A model generated the notes under the pieces. The model had not been told where the DNA came from. It saw nothing but the letters and a program-made list of their open reading frames with translations, and ran no database searches. 64,000 bases of DNA, from the NCBI RefSeq assembly GCF_014642075.1, contig NZ_BMIK01000001.1, positions 811,915 to 875,914 of the forward strand, read 5' to 3'. Shown piece after piece: positions 23,081 through 61,488 of the stretch (within the stretch, counting starts at the first letter, position 1; every line of letters starts with the position of its first letter). Origin of the DNA: Parapedobacter defluvii. GTDB lineage: Bacteria; Bacteroidota; Bacteroidia; Sphingobacteriales; Sphingobacteriaceae. The position numbers were made by a program, and so were the translations under genes.

Positions 23081-23172
23081 CGGACTAAAGATTGAGCCAA
23101 CAGTTCAGGACAGCCGTTATGTTAAATCTGCCTAATTTGCACCACGTGTTTTCACAGCGGCAAACCTTAAAT

Positions 23173-25992: not shown

Positions 25993-26154
25993 TTTAAATG
26001 CTGCCCCATACTCGTAACACCCGGTGTTGATCCGGTTTATAGCGATGCCATTCTCCCGAAATCGGCCATGCCGTGGCACGTCCTCATGCGTGTCGGGTCC
26101 AAAATGTACATCCGTAATGTCAAAACGTATATGGATGGGTATAATAATAAAAAA

Positions 26155-26162
26155 TAGCTTTG
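26155..26162 (+). promoter_or_regulatory. Candidate -7 box (TAGCTTTG) upstream of the isomerase gene
   Basis: TAGCTTTG fits TAnnTTTG and lies 48 bp before the start at 26211. It is in the 218-bp gap (25993-26210) that separates this gene from GH78, so a new transcript may begin here. The gap also has a 13-bp palindrome at 26016-26028 (AACACC C GGTGTT) and no small gene. Confidence 0.4.
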
Positions 26163-26210
26163 GATCATCCTATTAATAAACAGTTGTAAACAGTATAAAG
26201 CAATACATTC

Positions 26211-27632: not shown

Positions 27633-27638
27633 TGGACC

Positions 27639-39589: not shown

Positions 39590-39600
39590 CAGGAGAAAGC

Positions 39601-46414: not shown

Positions 46415-47674
46415 ATGAACGAAAACGTTAACAGAAGTGCTTTATTCAATGGATCTTGTTTCGCGCTTATTACGACGGCATTTACATTTGCCATCCGGGC
46501 GGGTATTCTACCCCAGTTGGGCGAGCAATTCAATTTGACGGCTGAACAGCTCGGTTTTATCAATTCCATGTGGTTTTTGGGATTTCCGATTTCCATGATC
46601 ATCGGTGGGTTGGTATACCATTCATTCGGCGCTAGGAATATCATGCGGGTGGCCTTTGTGGCACACACATTGGGAATTCTGCTGACCATTTATTCGGGAG
46701 GTTATACGGGCCTGCTGATTTCAACCTTGTTCATTGGATTTGGAAATGGTTGTACCGAGGCTGCTTGTAATCCGATGATCGCAGACATGTATTCGGACAA
46801 CCACATTAAAATGAACAAAATGCTGAGCAGATTCCATATGTGGTTTCCCGGAGGTATCCTGCTTGGTGCGCTGATCTCTAAATTCATGACCGATATGGGC
46901 GGCTTTTTCCAGCAATGGCAAACCCAGATGTGGGTGTTGATGATCCCTACCCTCATCTATGTCATATTGTTTTATGGAAAGACATTCCCCAAGGCCAAAG
47001 TGGAAGGTGCGACTTCGTTAGCACAGAATTTTAAGGCAATGCTTACACCCACTTTTCTCTTTTTGTTTTTCTGTATGGCGCTTACCGCAATCAGCGAGTT
47101 TGGACCGCAGCAGTGGGTATCCATTATCATGAGCCACAGCGGAGCGGATAGCATGCTGATTCTGGCATTGACTACGGGCCTGATGGCAGTGGGTAGGTTT
47201 TTTGCCGGTCCGGTAGTAAAAGCACTGGGACAGACAGGCGTACTGTTGGGGAGTGCTATTTTCGCAACCATTGGCATTTACCTCTTTAGTGTCGTTACCG
47301 GACCCATGGCGTATTTTGCTGCGGTAATATTTGCCTTGGGGGTTTGCTTTTTCTGGCCCGTCATGGTGGGCTCCGCAGCACAGCGGGTTCCCCTCAGCGG
47401 CGCGCTGGGGATGTCTGTAATCGGCGGTGTCGGCATGTTTTCCACAGCGATTTTTCAACCCATTATCGGTGGTTGGATAGATGGAGCCCGCGAAAAAAAT
47501 GCGGCTGCCGGACTCACAGACTCTGCATTGGAACTTGCTACCGGCCAGGACGCGTTGAGCAAAATGGTCTCGTTTCCTGCGATACTAATTGTATTATTTA
47601 TCATTTTCTTCTTCTGGCAAAAGTCATTGAAGGCGAAATCGGTTCAGACTACCACGCAGGAAGCCCTGAATTAG
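46415..47674 (+). CDS. MFS transporter, probable sugar permease
   Basis: This 419-residue integral membrane protein has about 12 hydrophobic segments. The first is FALITTAFTFAIRAGILPQL, and the last cytoplasmic-side helix is AILIVLFIIFFFWQKSLK. The N-terminal half has the MFS pattern FGARNIMRVAF after helix 2, and GFGNGCTEAACNPMIADMY resembles the fucose/hexose-type permeases common in Bacteroidota. It is followed by sugar-isomerase, oxidoreductase and DUF1080 genes in the same direction. It probably brings a sugar or oxidised sugar into the cytoplasm for those enzymes. The substrate cannot be read from the sequence. Confidence 0.88.
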   Translation: MNENVNRSALFNGSCFALITTAFTFAIRAGILPQLGEQFNLTAEQLGFINSMWFLGFPISMIIGGLVYHSFGARNIMRVAFVAHTLGILLTIYSGGYTGLLISTLFIGFGNGCTEAACNPMIADMYSDNHIKMNKMLSRFHMWFPGGILLGALISKFMTDMGGFFQQWQTQMWVLMIPTLIYVILFYGKTFPKAKVEGATSLAQNFKAMLTPTFLFLFFCMALTAISEFGPQQWVSIIMSHSGADSMLILALTTGLMAVGRFFAGPVVKALGQTGVLLGSAIFATIGIYLFSVVTGPMAYFAAVIFALGVCFFWPVMVGSAAQRVPLSGALGMSVIGGVGMFSTAIFQPIIGGWIDGAREKNAAAGLTDSALELATGQDALSKMVSFPAILIVLFIIFFFWQKSLKAKSVQTTTQEALN

Positions 47675-47904: not shown

Positions 47905-49122
47905 ATGGAAACAAGTAAGTTAGCAAAGAATTCATTGGAACAGGGTGAGGGCATATTGCGCTTGGCTCCGACGTGGGTACCCCGGTCATTCTGCGTGCCC
48001 GGCCGCCGGATCAAGCTTCACCCCGATGATTACTATGTGCTCGGCGGAGCGCGTGGGGGCATAGACGAACGCTGGTTCTCTTCTACCACCCCTGCGAAGA
48101 ACGGCCCTCTGACCGGAGAAAACGAAGGGTTGAGCCCGGTAGTCTACGAAGATGGAGGACAAACGCGTCAATTCCTTCTGAAAGACGCGGTCGACGAGCT
48201 GAAAGGCGAACTTATTGGTTCCCGTCTTTGGGACGAATACAAAAGCTGGCCCATTTATTCCAAATTTTTTGACAACATGGGGCCGCTACCACATCACGTA
48301 CACCACAACGATGAAAAAGCAGCCCTCATAGGCCAAAAGGGAAAACCGGAAGCGTATTACTTTCCGCCCCAGTTGAACAACCATGGCGGCGACTATCCGT
48401 ACACATTTATCGGCTTGGCACCGGGTACAACGAAAGACCAGATCCGGGAATGCCTGGTCAATTTTACCAAGGGAGATAACAAGATTACAAACTATTCACA
48501 GGCTTATCGCCTTGAACCGGGTACCGGGTGGGACGTTCCCCCGGGGCTGTTGCACGCACCGGGAAGTTTGTGTACCTATGAGCCACAGAAGGCGTCGGAT
48601 GTATTTGCCATGTACCAATCCTTGGTCAACGAGGCCGTCATCCCTGAGGAACTGCTGTGGAACGGGACGCCCAAAGACCGGATCGGTGATTTTGACGAAC
48701 TGATCGATGTGCTCGATTGGGAACTGAATGTGGATCCGAATACCATGCAAAATCGGTTCATGGCTCCCATTCCGGTTCGTAGCGAAGCTGAAATGCGTGA
48801 CGCAGGTTACGTTGAAAAGTGGATATGTTACAAATCGGATGCCTTCAGCGCAAAGGAATTGACGGTGTTGCCGGGCGCAACCGTAACCATCCGGGATGCA
48901 GCGGCTTACGGAATGATCATGATGCAGGGGCATGGGACCATGGGGGTATGGGACATTGAGACGCCCGCGTTGATCCGTTATGGCCAATTGACGCACGACG
49001 AGTATTTTGTGAGCGAACGTGCGGCACAGGCCGGAGTCAAGATTGTGAACCTGTCCAAAACGGATCCAATCGTTATGCTGAAACATTTCGGTCCGGGAAA
49101 TCCCGACCTGGTGTTAGCGTAA
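47905..49122 (+). CDS. Cupin-fold, type I phosphomannose isomerase-like protein
   Basis: This 405-residue cytoplasmic protein is read from ATG 47905 (METSKLAKNS); in-frame sequence upstream does not look coding. The zinc-site pattern of ManA-type isomerases appears as PLPHHVHHNDEKAALIGQKG, then KPEAYYFPPQL. A second cupin half has WDVPPGLLHAPGSLCTYEP and later TVLPGATVTIRDAAAYGMIM. The His-x-His-His-x-x-Glu cluster and following Lys/Glu agree with metal-dependent aldose-ketose isomerisation. It starts a compact run with the next four genes (gaps 39, 87, 24 and 17 bp). The substrate may be an unphosphorylated sugar, since no kinase is nearby. Confidence 0.75.
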   Translation: METSKLAKNSLEQGEGILRLAPTWVPRSFCVPGRRIKLHPDDYYVLGGARGGIDERWFSSTTPAKNGPLTGENEGLSPVVYEDGGQTRQFLLKDAVDELKGELIGSRLWDEYKSWPIYSKFFDNMGPLPHHVHHNDEKAALIGQKGKPEAYYFPPQLNNHGGDYPYTFIGLAPGTTKDQIRECLVNFTKGDNKITNYSQAYRLEPGTGWDVPPGLLHAPGSLCTYEPQKASDVFAMYQSLVNEAVIPEELLWNGTPKDRIGDFDELIDVLDWELNVDPNTMQNRFMAPIPVRSEAEMRDAGYVEKWICYKSDAFSAKELTVLPGATVTIRDAAAYGMIMMQGHGTMGVWDIETPALIRYGQLTHDEYFVSERAAQAGVKIVNLSKTDPIVMLKHFGPGNPDLVLA

Positions 49123-49161
49123 CCTATTTTTAAAAAACGAGATACAAACAATAAGAGAGAT

Positions 49162-50196
49162 ATGGATACGAAAAATAATTTTCCGAAGTTGCACAACGCA
49201 ACATGGCCGGGAATCGTAGGGAAGGGAGAAGGTTCTGAGCCTGTGATTCCGTTTGATGACTTATTGGCCTACACGGCGGCAGCTGAAGTAGATGGAGTGA
49301 AATTTGACGGCGTGGATGTCGGATTATTGGAACCGCACGTAAACATCAATGGCGGAAAAGACGAAGTGGAACGATTGGCGGAGAAAGTTTCTGCCCACGG
49401 TTTGAAAATCGGCTCGTTGGTGGCACCTATTTGGGCTGGGTCGGCTATGGGAAGCAAAGAGAGCCGCGTGGTATTTGTGGATATGGTACGTAAGGCATGT
49501 GAGTTTGGGCAGCAACTGCGCGAAATGGGTGTCCGTCCTTACGGTGTGGTGCGTGTTGATTCTTCCTGTTCACCGGCCGATTGGGCGAAAGATCCGGTTG
49601 GAAATACGAAGGTGATCGCCGAAACATTCCGTGAAGCCTGTGATGTGGCGGCAGACTATGGTGAAAAGCTGGCTGCGGAGGGAGAAATCTGCTGGGGTGG
49701 TATGCACAGCTGGCGGGCCATGCTGAATACCTTGGAGGCAGTTGACCGGCCGAATATGGGATTCCAGGCGGACATGTCGCATACATTCCTGTACTTATTG
49801 GGATATAATCAGCCGGAAGATCGGATTTTGCCGGAAAACTTCGATTGGAATGACCGTCAGACGTTGGAAGAGGGACTTCAGACCCTTACCCGGGCGCTGC
49901 GCCCTTGGACCATTGACTTCCACGTAGCTCAGAACGATGGAACCGTTTTTGGGTCGGGTTCGCATGATAAGACCGGACGTCACTGTCTGCCGAACGACCC
50001 GAATGGTAAATTGAACATCGCACACGATGCCGGCTACTGGTTGCGCGACGAGAAGGGCGAGCTAACCAAGGCATTCAAGCACATCTGCTGGGACGGATGC
50101 ATGTTCCCCAATGAGGTGCTGCATAAACAACAGACATGGAACGATATCCTGGCCGCATTAATCAGCGTACGCGAGGCACATGGCTGGCAGGAGTGA
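49162..50196 (+). CDS. Sugar phosphate isomerase/epimerase family TIM-barrel protein
   Basis: This 344-residue cytoplasmic protein of the xylose isomerase-like superfamily has putative metal ligands Glu in AAEGEICWGGMHS, Asp in MGFQADMSHTF and His in TIDFHVAQNDG. The C-terminal GCMFPNEVLHKQQTWNDILA fits the lid region. It starts 39 bp after the cupin gene and is followed by a heptamer array and the Gfo/Idh/MocA gene. Family members near Gfo/Idh/MocA and DUF1080 genes have been shown in Bacteroides to act on 3-keto-glycosides as lyases or hydratases, so the classical isomerase label may be misleading. That role here is inference. Confidence 0.82.
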   Translation: MDTKNNFPKLHNATWPGIVGKGEGSEPVIPFDDLLAYTAAAEVDGVKFDGVDVGLLEPHVNINGGKDEVERLAEKVSAHGLKIGSLVAPIWAGSAMGSKESRVVFVDMVRKACEFGQQLREMGVRPYGVVRVDSSCSPADWAKDPVGNTKVIAETFREACDVAADYGEKLAAEGEICWGGMHSWRAMLNTLEAVDRPNMGFQADMSHTFLYLLGYNQPEDRILPENFDWNDRQTLEEGLQTLTRALRPWTIDFHVAQNDGTVFGSGSHDKTGRHCLPNDPNGKLNIAHDAGYWLRDEKGELTKAFKHICWDGCMFPNEVLHKQQTWNDILAALISVREAHGWQE

Positions 50197-50201
50197 GGGT
50201 G

Positions 50202-50250
50202 AGGTACGAAATACGAGGTTAGAGGTACGAGGTACGAAATACGAGGTAGA
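50202..50250 (+). repeat. Heptamer tandem repeat (RRRTACG), intergenic copy
   Basis: Seven 7-bp units follow the isomerase stop by 5 bp: AGGTACG, AAATACG, AGGTTAG, AGGTACG, AGGTACG, AAATACG, AGGTAGA. The unit matches the array inside the FecR gene at 5194. The array fills most of the 87-bp gap before the Gfo/Idh/MocA gene and would be transcribed within the operon. Confidence 0.88.
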
Positions 50251-50283
50251 AAATCAAAACATAACTAGATAACTCCAGAAAAC

Positions 50284-51438
50284 ATGAGTAAAAAAGAGTT
50301 GAGAATCGGATTAATTGGTTGTGGATTCATGGGCAGGACCCATTCCAATGGGTACAACCGGGTACCCAATTTTTTCCCCGACCTGGAATACCAGCCGGTA
50401 TTGCAGGCGGTATGTTCGCGCCGGGAAGAAAAGGTAAAGGCATTCGCAGAACAATGGGGCTTTGCCTCGTACGAAACGGACTGGCGGAAACTGATTGCCC
50501 GTGACGATATCGACGCGGTGGATATCTGTACCCCCAATCACCTTCACGCGGAAATTGCAATAGCCGCAGCAGAAGCAGGTAAGATGGTGCTCACGGAAAA
50601 ACCGTTGGCTAGAAACCTGGAAGAATCGAAAAAAATGGTGGATGCCGTAGCAAAAGCCGGTGTGGCCAACACCGTTTGGTATAACTACCGGCGCTTGCCC
50701 GCAGTTACCCTGGCAAAGAAAATCGTCGCTTCCGGAAAATTAGGTAAGATTTTCCATTACCGTGCAAACTTCCTGCAGGATTGGACCATTAACGCCGATC
50801 TTCCCCAGGGCGGCGACGCCGCTTGGCGGATGGACGTAGACGTGGCAGGGTCGGGCGTTACCGGCGACCTGCTGGCGCACTGTATCGATACGGCCATGTG
50901 GATCAATGGCGGGATCTCCGAAGTGTCAGCGGTGACTGAAACGTTTGTGAAAGAGCGCGTACACAACGATACAGGCAAACTGGAGCCGGTTGGGATCGAC
51001 GATGCATGTATCTTTCACTGCCGCTTTTCAAATGGCTCACTGGGGCTGTTTGAGTCCACCCGGTATGCCCGGGGGCATAAAGCACTGTATACGTTTGAAA
51101 TCAACGGTGAGCATGCTTCCATCCGCTGGGATCTGCATGACCTGAACCGGCTGGAATATTTCGACAATGCGGTCGATTCGGACGTAAAGGGATGGAGTTC
51201 GATCCACGTAACCAATGGAGATCATCCCTATATGGATAAGTGGTGGGTGCCGGGATTGGGAATTGGCTATGAACACAGCTTTGTTCATCAGGCGGCTGAT
51301 TTTCTGAAAAGCCTGGAAAAAGGGGAGCCTTGCCAGCCCGATTTCCAAAATGCATACGAAACGCAGAAAGTGTGCGAAGCGGTAATTGAATCCGCTAAGT
51401 CGCGGAGTTGGAAAACGACAGACGTGACGATTGACTAA
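50284..51438 (+). CDS. Gfo/Idh/MocA family oxidoreductase
   Basis: This 384-residue NAD(P)-dependent dehydrogenase has a Rossmann N-terminus ([18 protein letters not shown]), the [20 protein letters not shown] strand, and the family motif LTEKPLARN that carries the catalytic-site Lys. The C-terminal substrate domain includes [16 protein letters not shown] and [22 protein letters not shown]. No signal or Tat sequence is present, so it is cytoplasmic. Enzymes of this family oxidise sugars and glycosides, often at C3. It lies between a sugar isomerase/epimerase and the DUF1080 lipoprotein gene, the set found in 3-keto-glycoside pathways. Confidence 0.93.
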
Positions 51439-51462
51439 ACGTTTTTATTTTAAGAATAGCAT

Positions 51463-52248
51463 ATGTTAACACCAAAAATTAACCTCCGGGCCCTTAAGGG
51501 CATCGGAGGATTTGTTTTAGTAGCTTCCCTATTTGTGAATTGTACATCAGGAGGCAGTCAGACAAATAAACAAGCAGAAGCCCAATCGGATTTTATCGAT
51601 TTGTTTGACGGTAAAACGCTCTCCGGTTGGAGAGGCGATACCTCCCTGTGGCGTGTGGAAGACGGAGCCATTGTCGGGGAAATTAAACCCGGCAAAGAAT
51701 TGGAACGGAATTCCTTTATTATCTGGGACGGAGGACGCCCCGCAGATTTTGAATTGATTGCTGAGTATAAGCTGACCGGGCAGGGAAACAGCGGTTTTAA
51801 CTATCGTAGTGAAGAATTGCCGGATCTTCCGTATGCGTTGCGGGGATATCAGGCAGATATCGATGCTGCGAATACCTACACGGGGCAGAACTACGAGGAG
51901 CGTGGGCGTACCATTTTGGCATTTCCCGGGCAGCAGATGCGCCTCCCGCCCGTAGAAGGTGAGATCAGCGATTACGCCAAGGGTAACATTTGGACAGCCG
52001 GTGAAGAAACCGGTTCCCTGGGCGACCGGGATTCGCTGAAAGCACACATTAAAACCGAAGACTGGAACGAACTCCGTATCGTTGCCAAAGGAAATCACCT
52101 GCAACATTATGTCAACGGCATTTTAATGAGTGATGTAACCGACGATGACGAGAAAAATCGTAAATTTGAAGGCTTGATGGGATTTCAGGTGCACGTAGGA
52201 CCACCGATGAAAATCGCTTTCAAGAACATACGGTTGAAAAATCTTTGA
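51463..52248 (+). CDS. DUF1080 (3-keto-disaccharide hydrolase family) lipoprotein
   Basis: This 261-residue lipoprotein has the lipobox SLFVNCTSG. The concanavalin-like domain has the DUF1080 hallmarks FIDLFDGKTLSGWRGD, then LWRVEDGAIVGEIKPG, DFELIAEYKLTGQGNSGFNY and, near the end, EDWNELRIVAKGNHLQHYVN with GFQVHVGPPMKIAFKNIRLK. Members have been shown to cleave 3-keto-glycosides or take part in their breakdown. Its signal places it in the periplasm or outer membrane, so its substrate would have to be oxidised outside the cytoplasm. The PVC-type dehydrogenases at 36896 and 42839 are candidate partners. It is followed after 17 bp by eboA. Confidence 0.88.
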   Translation: MLTPKINLRALKGIGGFVLVASLFVNCTSGGSQTNKQAEAQSDFIDLFDGKTLSGWRGDTSLWRVEDGAIVGEIKPGKELERNSFIIWDGGRPADFELIAEYKLTGQGNSGFNYRSEELPDLPYALRGYQADIDAANTYTGQNYEERGRTILAFPGQQMRLPPVEGEISDYAKGNIWTAGEETGSLGDRDSLKAHIKTEDWNELRIVAKGNHLQHYVNGILMSDVTDDDEKNRKFEGLMGFQVHVGPPMKIAFKNIRLKNL

Positions 52249-52265: not shown

Positions 52266-53144
52266 ATGAAGGATGTAGAAGCTGATTTACAAGATCAGAT
52301 AACTCGGTACCTATCCAATCAGGAATGGAATGACTTAACAGATCAGGTTAACCGGTTAGCCAACGATCCGCAGCCGAATACGTTGGCAAGGGTTTTTACA
52401 GGCGTTCCACGTACGATTCGATCGGCTGATACCGCGTTGCGGATCACGGTTGACGGGGCAGTGTCTGTCGACTCGGGTCGGTTGCCGCTTTTGATTAGAG
52501 ACTGGCCATTGGCGAGACTGATACGGGTCTGGGTACTGATGAACATTCCCAAGCTGGAACTGTCAGCTTACATTTCGTTGATCGAACGGCTGTTCCAATA
52601 TGGAGAAATGGAGGAATTGGCGGCGCTATATGCCGCCTTACCTATTTATCATTATCCCACCGAATGGCGGTTTCGTTGCACGGAAGGTATCCGTAGTAAT
52701 ATGGCACCCGTAAGGCAGGCCGTCATCCTCAATAATCCCTATCCCAGTCACTTCTTGGATGAGGGTGCCTGGAATCAGCTGGTGCTGAAAGCGTTTTTCA
52801 CGGATGAGAACATTCCGCAAATCATCGGGCTGAAAACACGTAACAACGGGAAATTGGCCGGAGCGTTGGTAGACTACGCGTACGAGCTTTATGCTGCCAA
52901 GCGCAACATCAATCCCTTCTTATGGATATTGGTCGCCCCGTTTCTGGACGAGCGGGCATACCGGCTCATGGAGCAGATTATCCAAGAAAGTCAACAGACG
53001 TTAACGCGAAAGGCAATTGCCTATGCATTCGGTACAGGCAATTTTGCACCGGCTACCGACTTTATAACGCGAAATAGTGAATTAACGGATTTAAGAAATA
53101 CAGCCGGTACACCGTGGGACGGCTGGCTGGATCAAACAGATTAA
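52266..53144 (+). CDS. eboA: EboA-like protein, first gene of the ebo cluster
   Basis: This 292-residue protein starts at ATG 52266; a TTG directly before it is in frame. It is mostly alpha-helical, with no signal peptide and no recognised catalytic motif. Characteristic stretches are VWVLMNIPKLELSAYISLIE, IYHYPTEWRFRCTEGIRSN, DEGAWNQLVLKAFFTDENIP and RNTAGTPWDGWLDQ. The pattern and the position directly before a TatD-like gene identify it as EboA. Its biochemical role is unknown. In cyanobacteria the ebo cluster is needed to export the scytonemin monomer to the periplasm. Its start lies 17 bp after the DUF1080 stop, so it may be transcribed with the sugar genes. Confidence 0.85.
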   Translation: MKDVEADLQDQITRYLSNQEWNDLTDQVNRLANDPQPNTLARVFTGVPRTIRSADTALRITVDGAVSVDSGRLPLLIRDWPLARLIRVWVLMNIPKLELSAYISLIERLFQYGEMEELAALYAALPIYHYPTEWRFRCTEGIRSNMAPVRQAVILNNPYPSHFLDEGAWNQLVLKAFFTDENIPQIIGLKTRNNGKLAGALVDYAYELYAAKRNINPFLWILVAPFLDERAYRLMEQIIQESQQTLTRKAIAYAFGTGNFAPATDFITRNSELTDLRNTAGTPWDGWLDQTD

Positions 53145-53149
53145 GGCAT

Positions 53150-54130
53150 ATGTGTAATTACAGTGAGCGAGATCGGGCATCGATGGGTGAACGGGTGGCC
53201 CTTGAGTTGGATTTGGTAAAAGGGTTCCGGTTTTTTGATCCCCATATCCACATGGTGTCAAGAACAACGGATGACTACCAGGCGATGGCCGATGCCGGAG
53301 TGGTTGCAGTCATCGAACCGGCCTTCTGGGTAGGACAACCACGTACAGGTATTGATACCTTCCGGGATTATTACAGCAGCTTGATCGGCTGGGAGCGCTT
53401 TCGGGCCTCGCAATTCGGGATCAGGCATTTTTGTACGATCGGGCTGAATTCCCGGGAAGCCAATAACGAAGCATTGGCCGAAGCGGTCATGGAGTTGTTA
53501 CCCTTTTTTATTTATAAAGAAGGGGTGGTCGGTATCGGCGAAATCGGCTTTGACGACCAAACGGCGGCCGAAGAAAAGTATTACCGGCTGCAACTGGAGC
53601 TTGCAAAAGAGGCCGCGCTTCCGGTGCAGGTACATACCCCCCATCGCGATAAAACCAAGGGTACATCCCGGAGTATGGACATTGCCCTGGAACACGGGTT
53701 GGATCCGGGTAAGGTCATCATTGACCACAATACCGAAGAGACGGTCAAAGAAGTGTTGGACAAGGGCTTCTGGGCCGCCTTCACGATTTATCCGTTTACC
53801 AAGATGGGGAACGAGCGGATGGTGGAAATTGTGAAACAATATGGCCCGGAGCGTATCTTGGTCAACTCTGCGGCCGACTGGGGGATCAGTGATCCGTTGG
53901 CAGTTCCCAAAACCGCTGCGCTGATGGTTAAAAGCGGTATTTCCAAAGAAGTTATCGAACAAGTGTGTTTCAAAAATGCCGTCGCTGCTTTCGGACAAAG
54001 CGGACAGCTGGATGAGTCGATGCTGGCTGAACATATCGTGATCGATCAGGGGCAGAAGTTTGAGGGGAATTCCATATTGCGTGGCGGGCAACAGCCGCGG
54101 AGAGATGCGGGATCGATCATTATATCGTAG
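53150..54130 (+). CDS. eboB: TatD-family metal-dependent hydrolase (EboB)
   Basis: This 326-residue protein is read from ATG 53150, 5 bp after the eboA stop. In-frame sequence further upstream lies inside eboA. The TatD-type metal site is visible as HxH in FFDPHIHMVS, Glu in GVVGIGEIGFDD, His in PVQVHTPH, His in KVIIDHNTEET, and Asp in LVNSAADWGISDP. It should be a cytoplasmic amidohydrolase-fold enzyme. In ebo clusters this gene always accompanies a UbiA-like and a dehydroquinate-synthase-like gene. Its natural substrate is unknown. Confidence 0.9.
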   Translation: MCNYSERDRASMGERVALELDLVKGFRFFDPHIHMVSRTTDDYQAMADAGVVAVIEPAFWVGQPRTGIDTFRDYYSSLIGWERFRASQFGIRHFCTIGLNSREANNEALAEAVMELLPFFIYKEGVVGIGEIGFDDQTAAEEKYYRLQLELAKEAALPVQVHTPHRDKTKGTSRSMDIALEHGLDPGKVIIDHNTEETVKEVLDKGFWAAFTIYPFTKMGNERMVEIVKQYGPERILVNSAADWGISDPLAVPKTAALMVKSGISKEVIEQVCFKNAVAAFGQSGQLDESMLAEHIVIDQGQKFEGNSILRGGQQPRRDAGSIIIS

Positions 54131-54136
54131 TCACGT

Positions 54137-55024
54137 ATGGCAAAATTAAAACCGTATCTGCAATTGATGCGGCCGGCTAACCTAGTGACGGCTATTTCGG
54201 ATGTGTTAGCCGGAGTTTCCATTGCATTGTTATTTGTACCCGATGGGTCAACACTCGATGGATCGGTTTTGATCGCATTGATCATCGCCACAGTGGGGCT
54301 TTACGGAGGTGGTGTGGTTTTCAACGATGTGTTTGATGCCGAGTTGGATGCCCGCGAACGGCCCGAGCGGCCGATTCCCAGCGGAAGGGTGTCCATACGC
54401 AGTGCGGCAGGATTGGGATCGATTTTATTTCTTATGGGAGTGATGGCTGCGGGCACCGTCGGCATGCTGCCGTCAGGGATTGCGCTTGCCATTGTAGTCA
54501 TGTGTTTAGTCTATGACAAATGGGCTAAGCATCACGCAATTGCCGGCCCCCTGGCGATGGGATTATGCCGTGGACTTAACCTATTGCTTGGGTTGGGCTA
54601 TTCGCTGTTGGCGTTGGATCAGGTTTGGTTTCTGGCAGTCGTTCCGGTTATCTACATTGCAGCCGTAACGACCATTAGCCGGGGTGAGGTACATGGAGGC
54701 CAACGCATGCCCCTGTATTTTTCGGCTCTATTATACGGCGTTGTTGTTGCATGCATCGTGGCTTTCGGGGTGCACTACCAAAGTAGCATACTGGCGGTCG
54801 GGATGGTGTTGCCCTTTATCTTATTTGTGTTCCCACCGCTCGTCAAGGCCATCCGTACGCTGGAAGCGGGCGATGTCCGAAAGTCCGTCAAGCATGGCGT
54901 AATCGGGCTGATTTTTATGAATGCTGCTTGGACTGCGGCTGCGGGAATGTGGACATTGACGTTCGCTACCTTGCTGTTGTTCCCGTTGTCCATCTGGCTG
55001 GCAAAGCTATTTGCCGTTACATAA
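54137..55024 (+). CDS. eboC: UbiA-like prenyltransferase (EboC)
   Basis: This 295-residue membrane protein has about eight hydrophobic helices (for example SVLIALIIATVGLYGGGVVF and ILFLMGVMAAGTVGML). The first Asp-rich motif of UbiA enzymes is NDVFDAELDARERPERPIPSG, with the expected ND-x-x-D-x-x-x-D spacing. The second is a weaker YDKWAKHHAIAGP. It may attach a polyprenyl group to a polar acceptor, giving a lipid carrier for transport across the membrane. It starts 6 bp after eboB and stops 7 bp before the best eboD start, so the genes are in one operon. Confidence 0.92.
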   Translation: MAKLKPYLQLMRPANLVTAISDVLAGVSIALLFVPDGSTLDGSVLIALIIATVGLYGGGVVFNDVFDAELDARERPERPIPSGRVSIRSAAGLGSILFLMGVMAAGTVGMLPSGIALAIVVMCLVYDKWAKHHAIAGPLAMGLCRGLNLLLGLGYSLLALDQVWFLAVVPVIYIAAVTTISRGEVHGGQRMPLYFSALLYGVVVACIVAFGVHYQSSILAVGMVLPFILFVFPPLVKAIRTLEAGDVRKSVKHGVIGLIFMNAAWTAAAGMWTLTFATLLLFPLSIWLAKLFAVT

Positions 55025-55031
55025 TTTGTTT

Positions 55032-56192
55032 ATGAAGTCTACGATTAAACAGAAATTTTCAGTTTCTTTTCAATACGATATTCATTTTACATCGGGGTTG
55101 TTTACACCCGAAAACCGCTTGCTCAGCGATTTTTTTGCGACGCGTTTGGAGGGACCTGTGCCCAAACTGCTGGTGGTGATTGATGAGGGGGTTGCAACCC
55201 ATCATCCGGCACTCATAGAGCGGATACGGGATTATTTTGAGTCTGAAACAGCCGTTCAATTGGTCGGAGAGATCGCAGTGGTGCCAGGTGGCGAAACGAT
55301 CAAGAATCAACCGGAGCATGTGGACCGCATCATTGAGTCGGTAGACCGGTACGGGATCGATCGGCATTCGTATATCATGGCCATCGGTGGCGGTGCCGTA
55401 CTCGACACCGTGGGTTATGCAGCGACGGTTGCACATCGCGGCATCCGCCACCTCCGGGTGCCGACGACTGTCCTTTCCCAGAATGACTCGGGCATGGGCG
55501 TGAAAAACGGCATTAATTACCGGGGTAAGAAAAATTTTATAGGCACGTTCAGTCCGCCTGTGGCCGTCTTCAACGACAACCTGTTTTTGTTGACGCTGAA
55601 TGACCGTGCATGGGTATCGGGTGTATCTGAAGCCGTAAAGGTAGCGCTGATTAAGGATGCTGTTTTCTTCGACTGGATTGAGAGCCATGCCGGGAGCTTA
55701 CGTCGCCGCGACAGTGACGCGATGGATTACCTTATTTTCCGCTGTGCGGAGCTGCACCTCCAGCATATTGCCGGGACCGATCCTTTTGAATTCGGTTCTT
55801 CGAGACCGCTCGATTTCGGTCATTGGAGCGCCCACAAGCTGGAACAGCTTTCCGGTTTCGAGGTATTGCACGGTGAAGCGGTAGCCATTGGCATCGCATT
55901 GGACACGGTGTATTCCGCAATCATCGGTATGCTTCCTCCTGGCGATGCACAGCGGGTACTTACGGTTTTGCAGGAGCTGGGATTGCCGATTTTCCATCCG
56001 CTATTGGAAAATACAGGCGAGGTTCATCCCCTGCTGGCCGGTTTGGAAGAGTTTCGCGAACACTTAGGGGGGCGCCTTACCATCATGCTACTCAAGGCAA
56101 TCGGTCGCGGTGTGGAAGTACATGAGTTGAATGAAGCGGAAGTGCTGCGGGCAGCTGCGGCCCTGCAAACCGGTGTTAATTTAGTAAGTTGA
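55032..56192 (+). CDS. eboD: 3-dehydroquinate synthase-like sugar-phosphate cyclase (EboD)
   Basis: This 386-residue protein is read from ATG 55032. An earlier in-frame ATG at 55011 lies inside eboC. NAD- and substrate-binding motifs are AVVPGGETIKNQPEHV, AIGGGAVLDTVGYAA and VPTTVLSQNDSGMGVKNGIN. Zinc ligands appear conserved: Glu in VSEAVKVALIKD, His in LDFGHWSAHKLE and His in LHGEAVAIGI. True dehydroquinate synthases have a V-D-S-S-x-G-G-K-type stretch where this has N-D-S-G-M-G-V-K, so the substrate is probably another sugar phosphate. It should form a cyclic polyol or ketone for the ebo product. Confidence 0.92.
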   Translation: MKSTIKQKFSVSFQYDIHFTSGLFTPENRLLSDFFATRLEGPVPKLLVVIDEGVATHHPALIERIRDYFESETAVQLVGEIAVVPGGETIKNQPEHVDRIIESVDRYGIDRHSYIMAIGGGAVLDTVGYAATVAHRGIRHLRVPTTVLSQNDSGMGVKNGINYRGKKNFIGTFSPPVAVFNDNLFLLTLNDRAWVSGVSEAVKVALIKDAVFFDWIESHAGSLRRRDSDAMDYLIFRCAELHLQHIAGTDPFEFGSSRPLDFGHWSAHKLEQLSGFEVLHGEAVAIGIALDTVYSAIIGMLPPGDAQRVLTVLQELGLPIFHPLLENTGEVHPLLAGLEEFREHLGGRLTIMLLKAIGRGVEVHELNEAEVLRAAAALQTGVNLVS

Positions 56193-56193
56193 T

Positions 56194-57411
56194 ATGATCA
56201 CGGCATACGGACAGTTAACCTATTGTACCAATATTCATGGAGGCGAAGCCTGGGATCAGCATTTTGAGTCGTTGAAGACGCATTTCCCAAAGATCAAACA
56301 GGCGGTGTCTCCCACGCAACCCATGGGTATCGGATTGCGGCTGGCCAATCTGGCCAGTACAATACTGATACAACCGGATCAGTTGGTTGAATTCAAGGAT
56401 TGGTTGACCCAGGCAGGTGGTTATATTTTTACCATGAATGGTTTTCCTTTCGGAGCCTTCCATGACACGAGGGTCAAAGAACAGGTCCACACACCGGATT
56501 GGACGACAGCCGAGCGGCTTCTATATACGAAACGGCTGTTTACCATTCTTTCCAAATTATTGCCGCAAGGGATGGATGGTGGGATTTCCACTTCACCGTT
56601 GGGATACCGGCATCAGTATAACGCGGACCAAACCACTTGGTTGGATATGCGAAAGCGGGCGACATTGCATCTCATCGATGTGGCAATTTATTTGCACCAA
56701 ATCTGTCAGGAGCAGGGTAAAGAATTGCATCTGGATATCGAACCGGAACCGGACGGCGTGTTGGAAACGGGGCCTGAGTTTATCGAATGGTTTACACAGG
56801 AATTGATTCCGTTGGGCGTGGTTCACCTCTCGGAACAATTGGGAATGACCCCCGACGAGGCCGAAGCGGCATTGAAACGGCATATCCGGCTCTGTTATGA
56901 CGTGTGCCATTTTGCATTGGGATACGAGCACCACCCGGTCGTAGTGGCCGAACTGGACCGTCAGGGGATACGGATAGGCAAATTCCAGATCAGCGCCGCC
57001 ATTAAGGCACATTTGCCGGAGGATACGGCCCGCCGTGCGGAAATTGGCGCTGCATTTAGAAAATTTGATGAGCCTACCTACCTGCATCAGGTGCTCGCCC
57101 GGCAAAAAAACGGTAATGTACGCCGTTTTCGGGATTTGCCGGATGCACAAGCGGCGTTACAGGATCCCGACACCCTGGAATGGCGATCACATTTCCACGT
57201 GCCGGTATTTTTGGAAGATATGGGACTGTTGCAGTCTACGCAGTCGGATATCCGGGAGGTATTGACCCTGCAGCGAGAACGTCCGGTAACCACCCATTTG
57301 GAAGTGGAAACGTATACATGGGGTGTGCTTCGTCCTGAACTGCAATTGCCCATTGCAGATTCCATTTCGCGTGAATTGCAATGGGTGCTGAAAGAATTGG
57401 AAAAGAAATGA
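56194..57411 (+). CDS. eboE: Metabolite traffic protein EboE (TIM-barrel sugar isomerase-like)
   Basis: This 405-residue protein starts one base after eboD. It resembles xylose isomerase-type TIM barrels: LTYCTNIHGGEAWDQHFESL, FTMNGFPFGAFHDTRVKEQV, GISTSPLGYRHQ, ELHLDIEPEPDGVLETG, LCYDVCHFALGYEHH and KFQISAAIKAH. The Glu in DIEPEPDG, the Asp and His in CYDVCHF, and His in HFHVPVFLED are likely metal ligands. The opening (TYCTNIHGGE) and the combination of motifs are characteristic of EboE. It overlaps eboF by 4 bp. It is thought to process the compound moved by the ebo system. Confidence 0.9.
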   Translation: MITAYGQLTYCTNIHGGEAWDQHFESLKTHFPKIKQAVSPTQPMGIGLRLANLASTILIQPDQLVEFKDWLTQAGGYIFTMNGFPFGAFHDTRVKEQVHTPDWTTAERLLYTKRLFTILSKLLPQGMDGGISTSPLGYRHQYNADQTTWLDMRKRATLHLIDVAIYLHQICQEQGKELHLDIEPEPDGVLETGPEFIEWFTQELIPLGVVHLSEQLGMTPDEAEAALKRHIRLCYDVCHFALGYEHHPVVVAELDRQGIRIGKFQISAAIKAHLPEDTARRAEIGAAFRKFDEPTYLHQVLARQKNGNVRRFRDLPDAQAALQDPDTLEWRSHFHVPVFLEDMGLLQSTQSDIREVLTLQRERPVTTHLEVETYTWGVLRPELQLPIADSISRELQWVLKELEKK

Positions 57412-58760
57412 AGAAAACCGTTGTTTTGGATGTCGTGGGCTTGTCGTCTGCATTGATCGGCGACCATACGCCTTTTTTGGCAGCCTATTTAAAAAAAAAT
57501 CAGTTAGCAAAGATAAAGCCGATGCTCCCCGCAGTAACCACAGCGGTACAAACCACCTATGTGACGGGGGAATGGCCAGCAGCGCATGGTATCGTGGGCA
57601 ATGGTTGGTATGACCGTACCGACAGCGAAATAAAGTTTTGGAAGCAATCCAATAAACTCGTCCAATCCGAATCGATCTGGGATACAGCCAAGCGCATTGA
57701 TCCTGATTTTACCTGTGCGCAGCTGTTTTGGTGGTATAATATGTATTGCGGGGCAGATTATTCGTTGACTCCCCGTCCCAATTACCTGGCGGACGGCAGA
57801 AAGATTCCGGATTGCTATTCACATCCGGCATCCCTGCGTGATGAACTTCAAGCAAAATTTGGGCAGTTTCCGTTGTTTAATTTCTGGGGGCCGGGAGCGA
57901 ATATCGCATCGTCTCAATGGATCGCAGACGCCGCCATGTATGTCGAGGAAAAACACAGTCCCACGCTGAGCCTGGTTTATTTGCCGCATCTTGATTATTG
58001 CCAGCAAAAGTTCGGTCCGGATCTGAAAAAGATCGGGAAGGAAGTGGCAGAGATTGATACTTTGCTGGAGCGGCTGGTCGGATTTTATGAACAGCGCGGC
58101 GCTAATGTCATCATTCTGTCGGAATACGGCATCGTACCCGTATCGCGTCCGGTACACATAAACCGGATCTTGCGTGAGGCTGGCCTGCTGGACATCCGTG
58201 TGGAGCGCGGATTGGAACTGCTCGATGCAGGTGCCTCCCAGGCGTTTGCCGTGTGTGATCACCAGGTTGCCCATATTTACACAAAACACGAAGAAGTGAA
58301 GCAACAGGTCAGGAAGCTATTGGAAAATGTAGCAGGGATTGACCGGCTGTTGGATGGCATGGAAAAAAAAGAAGCACACATCGATCACGAACGGGCGGGT
58401 GATTTGGTTGCCGTAGCGAAGCCCGATAGTTGGTTTACGTATTACTTTTGGTTGGACGATCGCGTGGCTCCGGATTATGCCCGCGTAGTAGACATCCATA
58501 AAAAGCCAGGCTACGACCCCGTGGAAATGTTTATGACGTCCAAATTGCGTGCCGCCTACAAACTATTGCGGAAAAAGCTGGGTTTCCGGTACGTCCTTGA
58601 TGTCATTCCGTTGGACGCTTCGCTGGTGAAAGGCTCGCACGGAGCTGTCGATATCCCCGAAGCTTATTATCCGGTATTGATCGGCAAAGATAAACTGCCC
58701 GGCGATGTACTGGAGCCTACTTCGGTCAAGGAACTCATTTTGGCAAGCCTAATGGGATAA
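57408..58760 (+). CDS. eboF: Alkaline phosphatase superfamily protein (EboF)
   Basis: This 450-residue protein is read from ATG 57408, overlapping the eboE stop as ATGA. It is related to nucleotide pyrophosphatase/phosphodiesterases. It has VVLDVVGLSSALIG (metal Asp), the nucleophile region MLPAVTTAVQTTYVTGEWPA with Thr, GIVGNGWYDR, and PTLSLVYLPHLDYCQQKFGP with Asp and later His. In place of the usual SDHGM stretch it has SEYGIVPVSRPVHINR. No signal peptide is seen, so it appears cytoplasmic. It may remove a phosphate or nucleotide from the ebo product. It is convergent with the AraC gene (16 bp apart) and ends the operon. Confidence 0.9.
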   Translation: MKKTVVLDVVGLSSALIGDHTPFLAAYLKKNQLAKIKPMLPAVTTAVQTTYVTGEWPAAHGIVGNGWYDRTDSEIKFWKQSNKLVQSESIWDTAKRIDPDFTCAQLFWWYNMYCGADYSLTPRPNYLADGRKIPDCYSHPASLRDELQAKFGQFPLFNFWGPGANIASSQWIADAAMYVEEKHSPTLSLVYLPHLDYCQQKFGPDLKKIGKEVAEIDTLLERLVGFYEQRGANVIILSEYGIVPVSRPVHINRILREAGLLDIRVERGLELLDAGASQAFAVCDHQVAHIYTKHEEVKQQVRKLLENVAGIDRLLDGMEKKEAHIDHERAGDLVAVAKPDSWFTYYFWLDDRVAPDYARVVDIHKKPGYDPVEMFMTSKLRAAYKLLRKKLGFRYVLDVIPLDASLVKGSHGAVDIPEAYYPVLIGKDKLPGDVLEPTSVKELILASLMG

Positions 58761-58776: not shown

Positions 58777-59652
58777 TCACGTATGGGAAATCCGCAAGGT
58801 TTTAGGCGAAATCCCGAACTTCTTTTTGAATAAACGAGAAAAATAAAACGGAGAATCAAAGCCGGTATGATAACCGATTTCCGTAACCGTAAGACGGGTG
58901 GTTTTGAGCAGTTCTTCGGCCTTATCAAGGCGGAGATCGAGGTGGTACTGATTAGGAGATTTTCCGGTAATCCGCTTGAAAGATTTTCTGAACTTCGAAT
59001 AACTGATCGGGAATTCTGCAGCCAGTTCTTCCATCCGGATGGGAGTTGCCAGTTCGCTCTGAAGTTTCAGTATGGCTTTGGATACCCACACAGATTCCGG
59101 GTCGTTGTCCGTTTTTTCGGTCAGGTTGACCCGGTTAAGCAGTCCGATAAGCTGCAATGTAATGCCGGCGATAATCTGTTGGTAGCCCATTTGGGCTTGT
59201 GAAACCGTACTCAATAACTGGGTAAATGCAGCCATCACATCCTTGCTTAATCCCGTCTTGATAAACGGAGTTTCGGGGCGGAACAGACGGTCCATAACGC
59301 GCCTTGGATAGTCCCCGTTAAAACCCACCCAATATTCCTCCCAGCCGAACGCGGGATTGGGTTTATACCGGTGCCAAATGCCTGGAAACAGCAGAAAGCA
59401 CATACCCGATTCGATCACTTGGGGCGGTGTATTGGCCGATTCAAATACCCCGCGTCCGCCGGTAATAAACACAATGTAATATCCATCAAGGATACGCCCC
59501 TTATTCCAGGAAAAGACATGGTCTGCCGGATGTTGACTCACATCGGGATACTGGGTATGCTTATCAATTTGGTTGTATCCAACTGTTGTGACGTAAAAGC
59601 CTAAATCACGGTCAATACCTCTCGTATGCAGATATTTATGGTAATTATTCAT
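58777..59652 (-). CDS. AraC-family transcriptional regulator
   Basis: This 291-residue protein is read from ATG 59652 (MNNYHKYLHTRG). The N-terminal cupin-like ligand domain (ILDGYYIVFITGGRGVFES, ESGMCFLLFPGIWHRYKPNP) probably binds a sugar. The C-terminal domain has two helix-turn-helices: ATPIRMEELAAEFPISYSKF, FKRITGKSPNQYHLDLRLDK and TRLTVTEIGYHTGFDSPFYF, then SRLFKKKFGISPKTLR. It is divergent from the dioxygenase gene and converges on eboF, so it may control one or both neighbours. The inverted repeat at 59682-59701 lies in its promoter region. Confidence 0.93.
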   Translation of the reverse strand: MNNYHKYLHTRGIDRDLGFYVTTVGYNQIDKHTQYPDVSQHPADHVFSWNKGRILDGYYIVFITGGRGVFESANTPPQVIESGMCFLLFPGIWHRYKPNPAFGWEEYWVGFNGDYPRRVMDRLFRPETPFIKTGLSKDVMAAFTQLLSTVSQAQMGYQQIIAGITLQLIGLLNRVNLTEKTDNDPESVWVSKAILKLQSELATPIRMEELAAEFPISYSKFRKSFKRITGKSPNQYHLDLRLDKAEELLKTTRLTVTEIGYHTGFDSPFYFSRLFKKKFGISPKTLRISHT

Positions 59653-59681
59653 AATTGGTTTGCACAATCAATGTATCAAAC

Positions 59682-59701
59682 ATACCGAAATCAAACGGTA
59701 T
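59682..59701. promoter_or_regulatory. Inverted repeat in the AraC/dioxygenase divergent region
   Basis: ATACCG (59682-59687) and CGGTAT (59696-59701) form a dyad with an 8-bp spacer, 30 bp before the AraC start and 136 bp before the dioxygenase start. It is a possible binding site for the AraC protein. The rest of 59653-59836 shows no clear gene. Confidence 0.35.
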
Positions 59702-59836
59702 TCACAAACCTTAACGAGTTGGAGGAAGAGAATTTGAAAATATCAAAAAGTGCAAAGAAAGATGAAGATCGGTCATTTTATCTACCCCTTCATACAACGA
59801 TATTTGTCATATATATTCACCAATTGTAATACAGTT

Positions 59837-60652
59837 ATGAACACGGATTTGAGCAAAGAACAACTAGATTTTTATCGTGAAAACGGCTATGTGATCGTAG
59901 AAGATTTTTTGAATGCCGAAGAGCTGGAGCACTGGCGTCGTACGGTTACCCAGGCAATCAAGGAGCGTAATGGGCTGAAAATGCCGGGTAAAGACGTCCG
60001 GCTTGGTGATGACGACGGCATCAATGAAGATGCTGCCTATTACAATAACGTATTTGACCAGCTGTTGAACCTATGGCAAACCAGTGAGGAGATGAAGCAG
60101 TTAATGGTCGACGAGCGTATCGGTAAAATGGCGGCCGATTTGGCGGGGGCGGATGGTATCCGCATCTGGCACGACCAAGCGTTGATCAAACGGCCTTGGG
60201 CGAATCCGACTTCCTGGCACCTGGATACACCGTTTTGGTCGTTTTCCGATCGACGGGCATTATCCATCTGGGTGGCGCTGGATGACGCAACGTTGGAAAA
60301 TGGATGCTTGTTCTTTATTCCCGGCTCACACAAAACGACAACCTTCGAAAATACCGGTATCGGAAAGAACATGGGCGGTATTTTTGAAGTATATCCCGAA
60401 TTTAAGCAGACGAAGTCCCACGCGGCGGTCATGAAGGCCGGTAGCTGTTCCTTTCACAATGGCTTGACTATCCACGGTGCCCACGCCAATATGACTCCGG
60501 GATTCCGCCGGGCGATGACCTGCGCGTACATGCCGGATGGAAATACTTATAACGGAATACCCAATATCCTGCCCGATGAATACCTGAGCACCCTGAAAGT
60601 AGGAGATCTATTAAATAACGACGAACAAAATCCGCTTATTTATAAACGCTGA
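59837..60652 (+). CDS. Phytanoyl-CoA dioxygenase (PhyH) family protein
   Basis: This 271-residue non-heme Fe(II)/2-oxoglutarate-type oxygenase is read from ATG 59837 (MNTDLSKEQLDFYRENGYVI). The double-stranded beta-helix has the iron ligands in TSWHLDTPFWSF (H-x-D) and in GLTIHGAHANMT (distal His), followed by the Arg for 2-oxoglutarate in PGFRRAMTCAYMP. It also has the PhyH motif NGCLFFIPGSHKTT. Members in such settings hydroxylate small metabolites, not necessarily lipids. It is translationally coupled to the next gene (TGATG) and divergent from the AraC gene. Confidence 0.92.
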   Translation: MNTDLSKEQLDFYRENGYVIVEDFLNAEELEHWRRTVTQAIKERNGLKMPGKDVRLGDDDGINEDAAYYNNVFDQLLNLWQTSEEMKQLMVDERIGKMAADLAGADGIRIWHDQALIKRPWANPTSWHLDTPFWSFSDRRALSIWVALDDATLENGCLFFIPGSHKTTTFENTGIGKNMGGIFEVYPEFKQTKSHAAVMKAGSCSFHNGLTIHGAHANMTPGFRRAMTCAYMPDGNTYNGIPNILPDEYLSTLKVGDLLNNDEQNPLIYKR

Positions 60653-61488
60653 TGCAAATAGACTTTTATTGCCCGCGCTGGGGAAGCGAACACATCGATT
60701 GGCCACAATTCACGAGGCAGGTAAAGCAGGAGGGATTCGTGGGTGTGGAGGTTTTTCCATTGGGCGATATGCCCAACAACCGTGACATGGTCAGCACACT
60801 CAGCGATGCAGGCCTGTCTTATATCCTGCTCCACGCAGAACTTCACGAGGGAAAGGATTTCAATCGGTATATCGAGGCATTGGAGCGCAACCTCTACACG
60901 TTGTTGGAATATCAAAGCGGGGCCGCAAAACCGGAGTTTATTGTTTCTCAAACCGGCAGGGAATATTACAGCCACACGCAGATGGAAGCATGCTTTGAAG
61001 TATGCGACCGGATCAGCCGGGAGTCCTCGGTCCGGATTATCCAGGAGACACACCGCAACAAATGGTCGTTTGCAGCGCATGTCGTCAAAGATTACCTGAT
61101 GGAGTTTCCGTCTTTGGAACTTGCGCTCGACTTTTCACATTGGGTCTGCGTTTCGGAAAGTTACCTCGAAGATCAGGACGATGCCATCGATCTGGCCATC
61201 CGGCATGGCAGGCACCTGCATGCCCGTGTGGGCTTTCCGGAGGGGCCGCAGGTTACCGACCCACGGGCGCCGGAAAACGAAGAAGCACTGATGCATCACC
61301 TGGCTTGGTGGGATCGATGGATAACCCATTTAAAGAAAACAGGGAGCGACCGGGCTACCATTACACCTGAATTCGGGGCTTACCCCTATATGCAGTATCG
61401 TCCCTTTACTACGCAACCCCTTACCAACCAGTGGGAAATCAATTGCTGGATGCGGCAGATGCTTCAAGAAAGATATAAGGAAGTCTAA
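60652..61488 (+). CDS. Sugar phosphate isomerase/epimerase family protein
   Basis: This 278-residue xylose isomerase-like TIM barrel is coupled to the dioxygenase gene by a TGATG overlap. Putative metal ligands are Glu in VRIIQETHRNKWSF, Asp in ELALDFSHWVCVSE, His in RHLHARVGFPEGPQ and Glu in ATITPEFGAYPYM. The strand order and the PEFG ending are typical of this family. It may act on the sugar that is hydroxylated by the neighbouring oxygenase, or on an inositol-like compound. No closer assignment can be made from the sequence. It ends just before the CAGGACAG promoter of the third sigma gene. Confidence 0.88.
   Translation: MQIDFYCPRWGSEHIDWPQFTRQVKQEGFVGVEVFPLGDMPNNRDMVSTLSDAGLSYILLHAELHEGKDFNRYIEALERNLYTLLEYQSGAAKPEFIVSQTGREYYSHTQMEACFEVCDRISRESSVRIIQETHRNKWSFAAHVVKDYLMEFPSLELALDFSHWVCVSESYLEDQDDAIDLAIRHGRHLHARVGFPEGPQVTDPRAPENEEALMHHLAWWDRWITHLKKTGSDRATITPEFGAYPYMQYRPFTTQPLTNQWEINCWMRQMLQERYKEV

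Follow-up and report, generated by a model that had tools for sequence, protein, structure and literature searches.

We analysed a 64,000-nucleotide stretch of the Parapedobacter defluvii genome (the whole stretch is referred to as the window), in which a complete ebo operon, eboA to eboF, is directly preceded by a cassette of sugar-oxidation genes. We propose that the ebo operon and the extracytoplasmic sugar-oxidation module to which this cassette belongs work together, via a prenyl-cyclitol that the module would need, and we put the chances of this proposal being correct at about even. The module comprises a cupin (CUPX), a TIM barrel (TIM1), a Gfo/Idh/MocA oxidoreductase (GFO) and a 3-keto-disaccharide hydrolase (KDH), together with a DUF4432 protein (c11) and a predicted propeller-HEAT-cytochrome c lipoprotein (c12). 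The ebo operon itself is known; its sugar-oxidation module partner is new, no mention of such a partner having been found in the open-access literature, and the link between propellers and ebo is newly proposed here.

Co-occurrence was assessed in 151 genomes of the family and in a sample of 395 genomes from the phylum, in which EboC scored over its cut-off in 49 and 31 genomes, respectively. CUPX was found in 25 family genomes, all of them among the 49 with EboC; eboC without CUPX thus occurs in 24/49 genomes and CUPX without eboC in 0/25. TIM1 is present in exactly the same 25 genomes, GFO (at E 1e-150) in 24, all within these 25, and DUF4432 (at E 1e-80) in 25, namely 24 CUPX genomes and one genome (G139, 51% identity) without EboC over the cut-off. 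In the phylum sample CUPX occurs in 19/395 genomes: the ten close copies (at least 76% identity) are all accompanied by EboC, and none of the nine distant copies (35-51%) is. Eight of the nine distant-CUPX genomes have readable surroundings, and no propeller of this kind was found there; the one annotated distant cassette is of the ABC-transporter/sugar-kinase type. The probability of full containment is 2.7e-15 for the family and 2.0e-12 for the phylum sample, both values ignoring kinship, and 9.6e-7 when labels are shuffled within genera only, with genus counts entered by hand. As a control, a GH106 gene from the window was found in 13/151 genomes, 6 of them with EboC, which is not far above the base rate of 49/151. 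In the samples searched the dependence goes in one direction only: ebo is needed by the module but also occurs without it.

Neighbourhoods were compared over 109 non-redundant ebo loci with eboB, identical EboB ends having been removed beforehand and 14/123 loci without a recognised eboB having been left out. This comparison, which the preliminary description of this DNA had suggested, shows that ebo does adjoin sugar oxidoreductase genes in relatives. Cassette genes lie directly before ebo in 10/109 loci, the window included (four Parapedobacter, two Olivibacter-type and four genus-g16 loci), and additionally in a Chitinophagaceae bacterium (L110) at a gap of 1122 bp. In P. luteus the cassette before ebo is without CUPX, which is found some 13 kb away. 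We then tabulated the genes around 24 close copies of CUPX that do not adjoin ebo directly (L231-L254; the short CUPX locus L174 of G148 was left out): the approximately 900-residue propeller c12 is present in 22/24, DUF4432 in 23/24, TIM1 in 21/24, GFO in 22/24 and KDH in 21/24. Some of these absences reflect the end of a contig or a gene relocated to a nearby place, and distant genomes vary in gene order. SusC/SusD genes precede the module in several related loci. In G078 the matches to both GFO and DUF4432, and in G133 the match to GFO, were flagged by the genome search as containing an in-frame stop, which may be the true terminus or an error.

Trees were compared for 33 genome pairs, reduced to 32 when G393, which has no recognised eboD, was dropped; the fragmented genomes G133 and G148 were not included. 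Over the 32 genomes, CUPX distances correlate with those of EboB plus EboD (r 0.85), and therefore much of ebo and the module has been inherited together. In the CUPX tree the two g7 genomes fall with Parapedobacter (Shimodaira-Hasegawa-like approximate likelihood ratio test support 92), a grouping that the ebo data reject (p of the approximately unbiased test 0.00058); this clade was chosen after an initial inspection of both quick trees, and some branches are long. The ebo operon and the module are not simply one inherited block and have partly separate histories, and the g7 conflict implies that different ebo lineages can serve the same module.

The window's operon is, by its sequence, an ordinary one for Bacteroidota. 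Open reading frames, a check of the sequence and family models all bear out the complete set of six genes in canonical order and close packing given in the preliminary description, a narrower EboA family model (NF035937, 172.1 bits against a cut-off of 320) being the exception. The genes are contiguous on one strand (52266-58760), with gaps of 5, 6, 7 and 1 bp from A/B to D/E and a 4-bp overlap of eboE and eboF. The 17 bp between the end of the KDH gene (DUF1080 in the preliminary description) at 52248 and eboA were confirmed, as were the Gfo/Idh/MocA and isomerase-type genes before it (PF06439, Gfo/Idh/MocA, AP_endonuc_2), and likewise no aromatic-compound biosynthesis gene was found beside ebo among the genes scanned. 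Promoter-like sites around the 17-bp gap (21 against 17.3 expected) and terminator-like sites in the same region (19 against 17.6) do not rise above chance, and the single match in the window to a Bacteroidota-type promoter pattern (1.78 expected) sits beside the AraC gene. The nearest named ebo loci are those of Parapedobacter indicus (EboE 82%), P. luteus and P. koreensis. NCBIfam names EboD a 3-dehydroquinate synthase (NF004852, 558.9 bits, cut-off 333). A separate aroB lies on another contig of the genome (C2; 335.2 bits, cut-off 305), which makes EboD unlikely to be the housekeeping dehydroquinate synthase; it is probably a different cyclase. Its motif reads LDFGH against LNLGH in four solved dehydroquinate synthases, and in this it resembles the cyclase 4p53 (VDFGH); we take the residues at this site to have a functional role.

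CUPX, TIM1, GFO and KDH lie on the same strand immediately upstream of ebo (47905-52248), and c12 and c11 (36896-40659) are split from CUPX by four genes, which encode a ThuA-domain protein, a TIM barrel, an MFS transporter and, on the minus strand, a haem propeller. CUPX matched no Pfam or NCBIfam family. Its AlphaFold2 (AF2) model has a mean predicted local distance difference test score (pLDDT) of 91.6, and the best Foldseek hits are the phosphomannose isomerases 1zx5, 5zt4 and 1qwr (best E 1.5e-18). The fold is alike, but identity in these hits is 11-15%, and the close form of CUPX differs from phosphomannose isomerase in that the samples searched showed it only alongside ebo. The invariant residues H131, H133, K147, E149 and H217 resemble what we take to be the metal-site motif of phosphomannose isomerase, with the residue roles that we assume for it. 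Sequence comparison named no substrate for CUPX or TIM1, giving only weak hits for CUPX, the best a phosphomannose isomerase, and none for TIM1. The best named model for GFO is that of levoglucosan dehydrogenase (NF052479, 347.5 bits, below the equivalog cut-off of 650); the nearest solved chain is 4h3v, followed by 6a3f, presumably a levoglucosan dehydrogenase. The module is like the levoglucosan/3-keto-glycoside pathway (PMC7676230, drawn on in excerpt, as are all papers cited here) in having a Gfo/Idh/MocA dehydrogenase beside a xylose-isomerase-like barrel, to which it adds a cupin isomerase, DUF4432, a 3-keto-disaccharide hydrolase and a haem propeller.

The c12 protein has a lipoprotein-like N-terminus ending in LASAC and passes the TIGR02603 haem domain model (104.3 bits, cut-off 68.15). 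In a comparison with haem propeller proteins of the Planctomycetes-Verrucomicrobia-Chlamydiae type (TIGR02604/DUF7133) and soluble glucose dehydrogenases that use pyrroloquinoline quinone (PQQ), the common features are a propeller fold, HEAT repeats and a C-terminal CxxCH cytochrome domain. It differs in scoring below the TIGR02604 cut-off (70.3 against 122.2 bits) and in lacking, at the aligned place, the RxRD-type arginine pair that we take to bind PQQ. In the weak profile alignment the pair is found in 0/17 proteins, the position being PLT/PLV or similar (Pro/Thr in the protein of the window); a histidine is retained, as is an Arg-Asn pair. The AF2 model (pLDDT 76.6) has as its best Foldseek hits the soluble quinoprotein glucose dehydrogenases 1c9u, 2ism and 3das. 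The PqqE model scored over cut-off in 0/34 module genomes and likewise in 0/14 control genomes, hence without a positive control, and PQQ uptake is possible.

Before the module, at 20591-36528, are several alpha-L-rhamnosidase genes (GH78, GH106), one of them a 1957-residue GH106-GH78 fusion, and an arabinose-isomerase-like gene; given these rhamnosidases the targeted glycan may be rhamnose-rich.

In a minority of loci, the association of ebo extends to sugar-oxidation genes that are not orthologous to the module. For the 99 loci without the cassette, we annotated by Pfam scan those upstream genes on the same strand that encode 150 residues or more, giving 64 chain genes in 37 loci (two of 66, the eboE and eboF of one locus, were excluded). 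They include five DUF7133 propellers (that of L107 below the Pfam cut-off), five cytochrome c, four 3-keto-disaccharide hydrolase, three Gfo/Idh/MocA, two GSDH, two AP_endonuc_2 and two ThuA matches. Using profiles built from the module's own families, and ignoring kinship, we found propeller, GFO-like or KDH-like genes in 11/64 chain genes (8/99 loci) against 19/831 other genes of these loci (Fisher 2e-6); separately, GFO-like genes make up 3/64 against 8/831 (Fisher 0.04) and KDH-like genes 3/64 against 0/831 (Fisher 0.0003). That ebo is generally found next to sugar oxidoreductases was rejected as a rule, as most loci have no such neighbours. The notion that such genes are absent elsewhere in ebo loci, from a small 64-gene control (best 25 of 149 families; two of 66 control genes were taken out to match the chain genes), was also rejected: by the full count they are rarer there. 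Near eboA in L107 (3543-5603) a propeller ends in a cupredoxin (azurin/plastocyanin-like) domain and not in cytochrome c, a fusion that supports a redox role. A small TMEM220-family membrane protein (L150:5817-6185; PF15071 in the one member scanned) is encoded in the upstream chain of eboA in 64/109 ebo loci and is a candidate seventh ebo gene in Bacteroidota; the window's operon, unlike these, has no TMEM220 gene in front of eboA.

Outside Bacteroidota, we examined 14 regions (one of them from a Bacteroidota plasmid) out of 48 plasmid records that hold EboE. In each of the two Ketogulonicigenium vulgare regions, eboD is immediately preceded by two Gfo/Idh/MocA genes and eboB is followed by a sugar isomerase/epimerase gene, and one Salipiger plasmid has a PQQ-type dehydrogenase, annotated as PQQ-dependent, two genes after eboB. 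The SCO3242-family prenyltransferase operons of Streptomyces resemble ebo in combining EboA, EboB, EboE, an EboF-like phosphodiesterase and a prenyltransferase. They differ in having an inositol-3-phosphate synthase gene, which begins the operon in 4/4 regions, no annotated eboD, and a further sugar isomerase/epimerase; this arrangement, with the synthase and no annotated eboD, strengthens the published guess of a cyclitol in the ebo product. On a Streptomyces camelliae plasmid a ScyD/ScyE-family gene (L300:1188-2390; 243 bits, cut-off 80) lies 110 bp before the ebo-like operon.

The published record provides the frame for a mechanism. The ebo genes have been reported from seven bacterial phyla and algal plastids, and the same account proposed a prenylated cyclitol as the ebo product, mentioned a cofactor for scytonemin enzymes in passing and described scytonemin as restricted to cyanobacteria (PMC5133447). 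The window's operon is of the ABCDEF type found in Bacteroidetes, Cyanobacteria and Leptospira (PMC5133447, PMC6282210), with all six genes in the same order, and differs in being directly preceded by a sugar-oxidation cassette and not by scytonemin genes. In the scheme that we infer from gene content, gene order, co-occurrence and the partly separate histories, EboD would cyclise a sugar phosphate to a cyclitol, EboC would prenylate it, and EboA, B, E and F would trim, modify or present the prenyl-cyclitol. This membrane-bound product would be needed by the module either as a component for the propeller/cytochrome c lipoprotein or to carry a metabolite over the inner membrane. Outside that membrane the lipoprotein would oxidise a sugar; the 3-keto-glycoside hydrolase would cleave the oxidised sugar, a transporter would import it, and the cupin isomerase, the TIM barrel and the Gfo/Idh/MocA enzyme would convert it in the cytoplasm, the cassette presumably being co-transcribed with ebo. 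Since the dependence of the module on ebo is one-way, ebo is more likely to supply the module than to take its product. A likely recipient is the extracytoplasmic haem propeller, because the distant CUPX cassettes without ebo are also without a propeller in the eight readable loci and because the family of the periplasmic ScyE weakly resembles haem propellers other than c12, with scores under the cut-offs. The prenyl-cyclitol might serve this propeller oxidoreductase in the way that ebo may serve ScyE when scytonemin is made.

The preliminary description suggested that the upstream enzymes may make a sugar-derived polyol that ebo exports or finishes, as with the scytonemin monomer. Its tie between ebo and these enzymes stands, and is a conserved link beyond adjacency; its direction is not supported. 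With 24/49 eboC genomes lacking the cupin and eboC present in 25/25 cupin genomes, ebo is not dependent on the upstream enzymes, contrary to that model, which was right about a link and probably wrong about its direction. The haem propeller lipoprotein, the 3-keto-glycoside hydrolase, the MFS transporter of the window and SusC/SusD in related loci further suggest uptake and breakdown, a module that is catabolic and not biosynthetic. We therefore consider polyol export unlikely, despite the 17-bp adjacency and the export role published for ebo in Nostoc (PMC6282210). It is equally improbable, in our estimation, that there is no functional link at all, both sets being accessory genes of the same lifestyle that chance brought together in a small number of lineages. 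Many module genomes do carry ebo and the module apart, and most ebo loci have other upstream neighbours, such as the TMEM220 gene. Such a reading has to contend with a containment that is strictly one-way in both samples and also holds within genera, with the behaviour of the GH106 control (6/13) and with the further ebo loci that have other enzymes of the same types upstream; chance adjacency as such was rejected on the recurrence of the cassette before ebo and on the containment statistics.

A special form of our proposal is that the product of ebo, a new membrane-bound prenyl-cyclitol, acts as a cofactor or carries electrons for beta-propeller oxidoreductases located outside the cytoplasm; its scope would take in the haem and cupredoxin propellers of Bacteroidota sugar oxidation and ScyE-type proteins in cyanobacteria and Streptomyces. 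We regard this as something of a long shot. It is kept as the boldest reading because c12 has a quinoprotein fold, resembling PQQ sugar dehydrogenases, yet PqqE is not over cut-off in the module genomes and the presumed arginine pair is missing, with the histidine and Arg-Asn pair remaining. The propellers near ebo carry a fused cytochrome c domain or, in L107, a cupredoxin domain, and the ScyD/ScyE-family gene of S. camelliae adjoins an ebo-like operon. Against it are the weak match of the propeller to the GSDH profile (probability 9%, E 0.0036), the lack of a positive control for PqqE, the occurrence of propellers elsewhere in the same loci (11/831 genes) and the ebo-linked Salipiger enzyme annotated as PQQ-dependent. 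Nostoc ebo and scyE mutants accumulate the same scytonemin monomer, which speaks for this reading, but it stays in the cytoplasm in the former and reaches the periplasm in the latter, which argues for an export role of ebo (PMC6282210). The less specific helper role of a prenyl-cyclitol is the best-supported reading.

Several observations weigh against this helper role as well. Shared habitat could explain the co-occurrence; the cassette directly precedes ebo in only ten of the loci compared, and the two are unlinked in many module genomes. No propeller was found in the stretch around CUPX in 2/24 loci (L231, L250). The commonest Pfam match among the chain genes is the metallo-beta-lactamase fold (11 of 64, repeated in related loci), and the enrichment of propellers alone is modest (5/64 chain genes, 5/99 loci, against 11/831; Fisher 0.004). 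In 10/14 plasmid regions neither a propeller oxidoreductase nor a Gfo/Idh/MocA gene is annotated nearby, annotation being incomplete for this collection. Relatives of EboC farnesylate quinolines in vitro (PMC9235831), which fits an aromatic acceptor better than a cyclitol.

Scytonemin export is the only worked case of an ebo function found in the open-access literature. With a module that was not found without ebo, each ebo gene could be tested through a growth phenotype of ordinary environmental Bacteroidota, and the module predicts where the ebo molecule should be sought, in the membrane beside the haem propeller lipoprotein. If the cofactor role were true, the scytonemin phenotype of ebo mutants would be a special case.

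Table 1. Predicted genes of the module, the ebo operon and the adjoining regulator in the window, with the matches on which each assignment is based.
Feature	Position	Strand	Basis
c12, propeller-HEAT-cytochrome c lipoprotein, candidate extracytoplasmic sugar oxidoreductase	36896-39589	+	TIGR02603, AF2 model, Foldseek
c11, DUF4432 protein, module member	39601-40659	+	PF14486 300.2 bits
ThuA-domain protein, between module halves	40813-41853	+	PF06283
AP_endonuc_2 sugar epimerase-like protein	41902-42750	+	PF01261 138.9 bits; psicose 3-epimerase model below cut-off
GDSL lipase-DUF7133 propeller-HEAT-cytochrome c protein	42839-46003	-	TIGR02604 245.5 bits (cut-off 122.2)
MFS transporter	46415-47674	+	PF07690
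CUPX, phosphomannose-isomerase-fold cupin	47905-49122	+	predicted structure; no Pfam or NCBIfam match
TIM1, xylose-isomerase-like TIM barrel	49162-50196	+	PF01261
GFO, Gfo/Idh/MocA oxidoreductase, distant levoglucosan dehydrogenase relative	50284-51438	+	family models, solved-chain comparison
KDH, 3-keto-disaccharide hydrolase (formerly DUF1080), likely lipoprotein	51463-52248	+	PF06439 127.2 bits; N-terminal sequence
eboA	52266-53144	+	EboA domain NF035938 140.9 bits (cut-off 50)
eboB, TatD-like hydrolase	53150-54130	+	PF01026
eboC, UbiA-like prenyltransferase	54137-55024	+	NF035940 363.7 bits (cut-off 250)
eboD, sugar phosphate cyclase	55032-56192	+	DHQ_synthase PF01761/PF24621; alignment to solved cyclases
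eboE, TIM barrel	56194-57411	+	NF035939 479.3 bits (cut-off 250)
eboF, phosphodiesterase/nucleotide pyrophosphatase family	57408-58760	+	Phosphodiest PF01663 211.7 bits
AraC-type regulator, convergent with eboF	58777-59667	-	PF12833/PF02311

Downstream of ebo in the window (58777-61488) are genes for the AraC regulator, a PhyH dioxygenase and a TIM barrel; relatives of the first two are found approximately 7 kb further downstream of ebo in P. indicus (L082). A pair of genes for a hypothetical protein and a ferritin-like protein precedes ebo in Aureibacter and Mycetohabitans plasmids (L287, L292).

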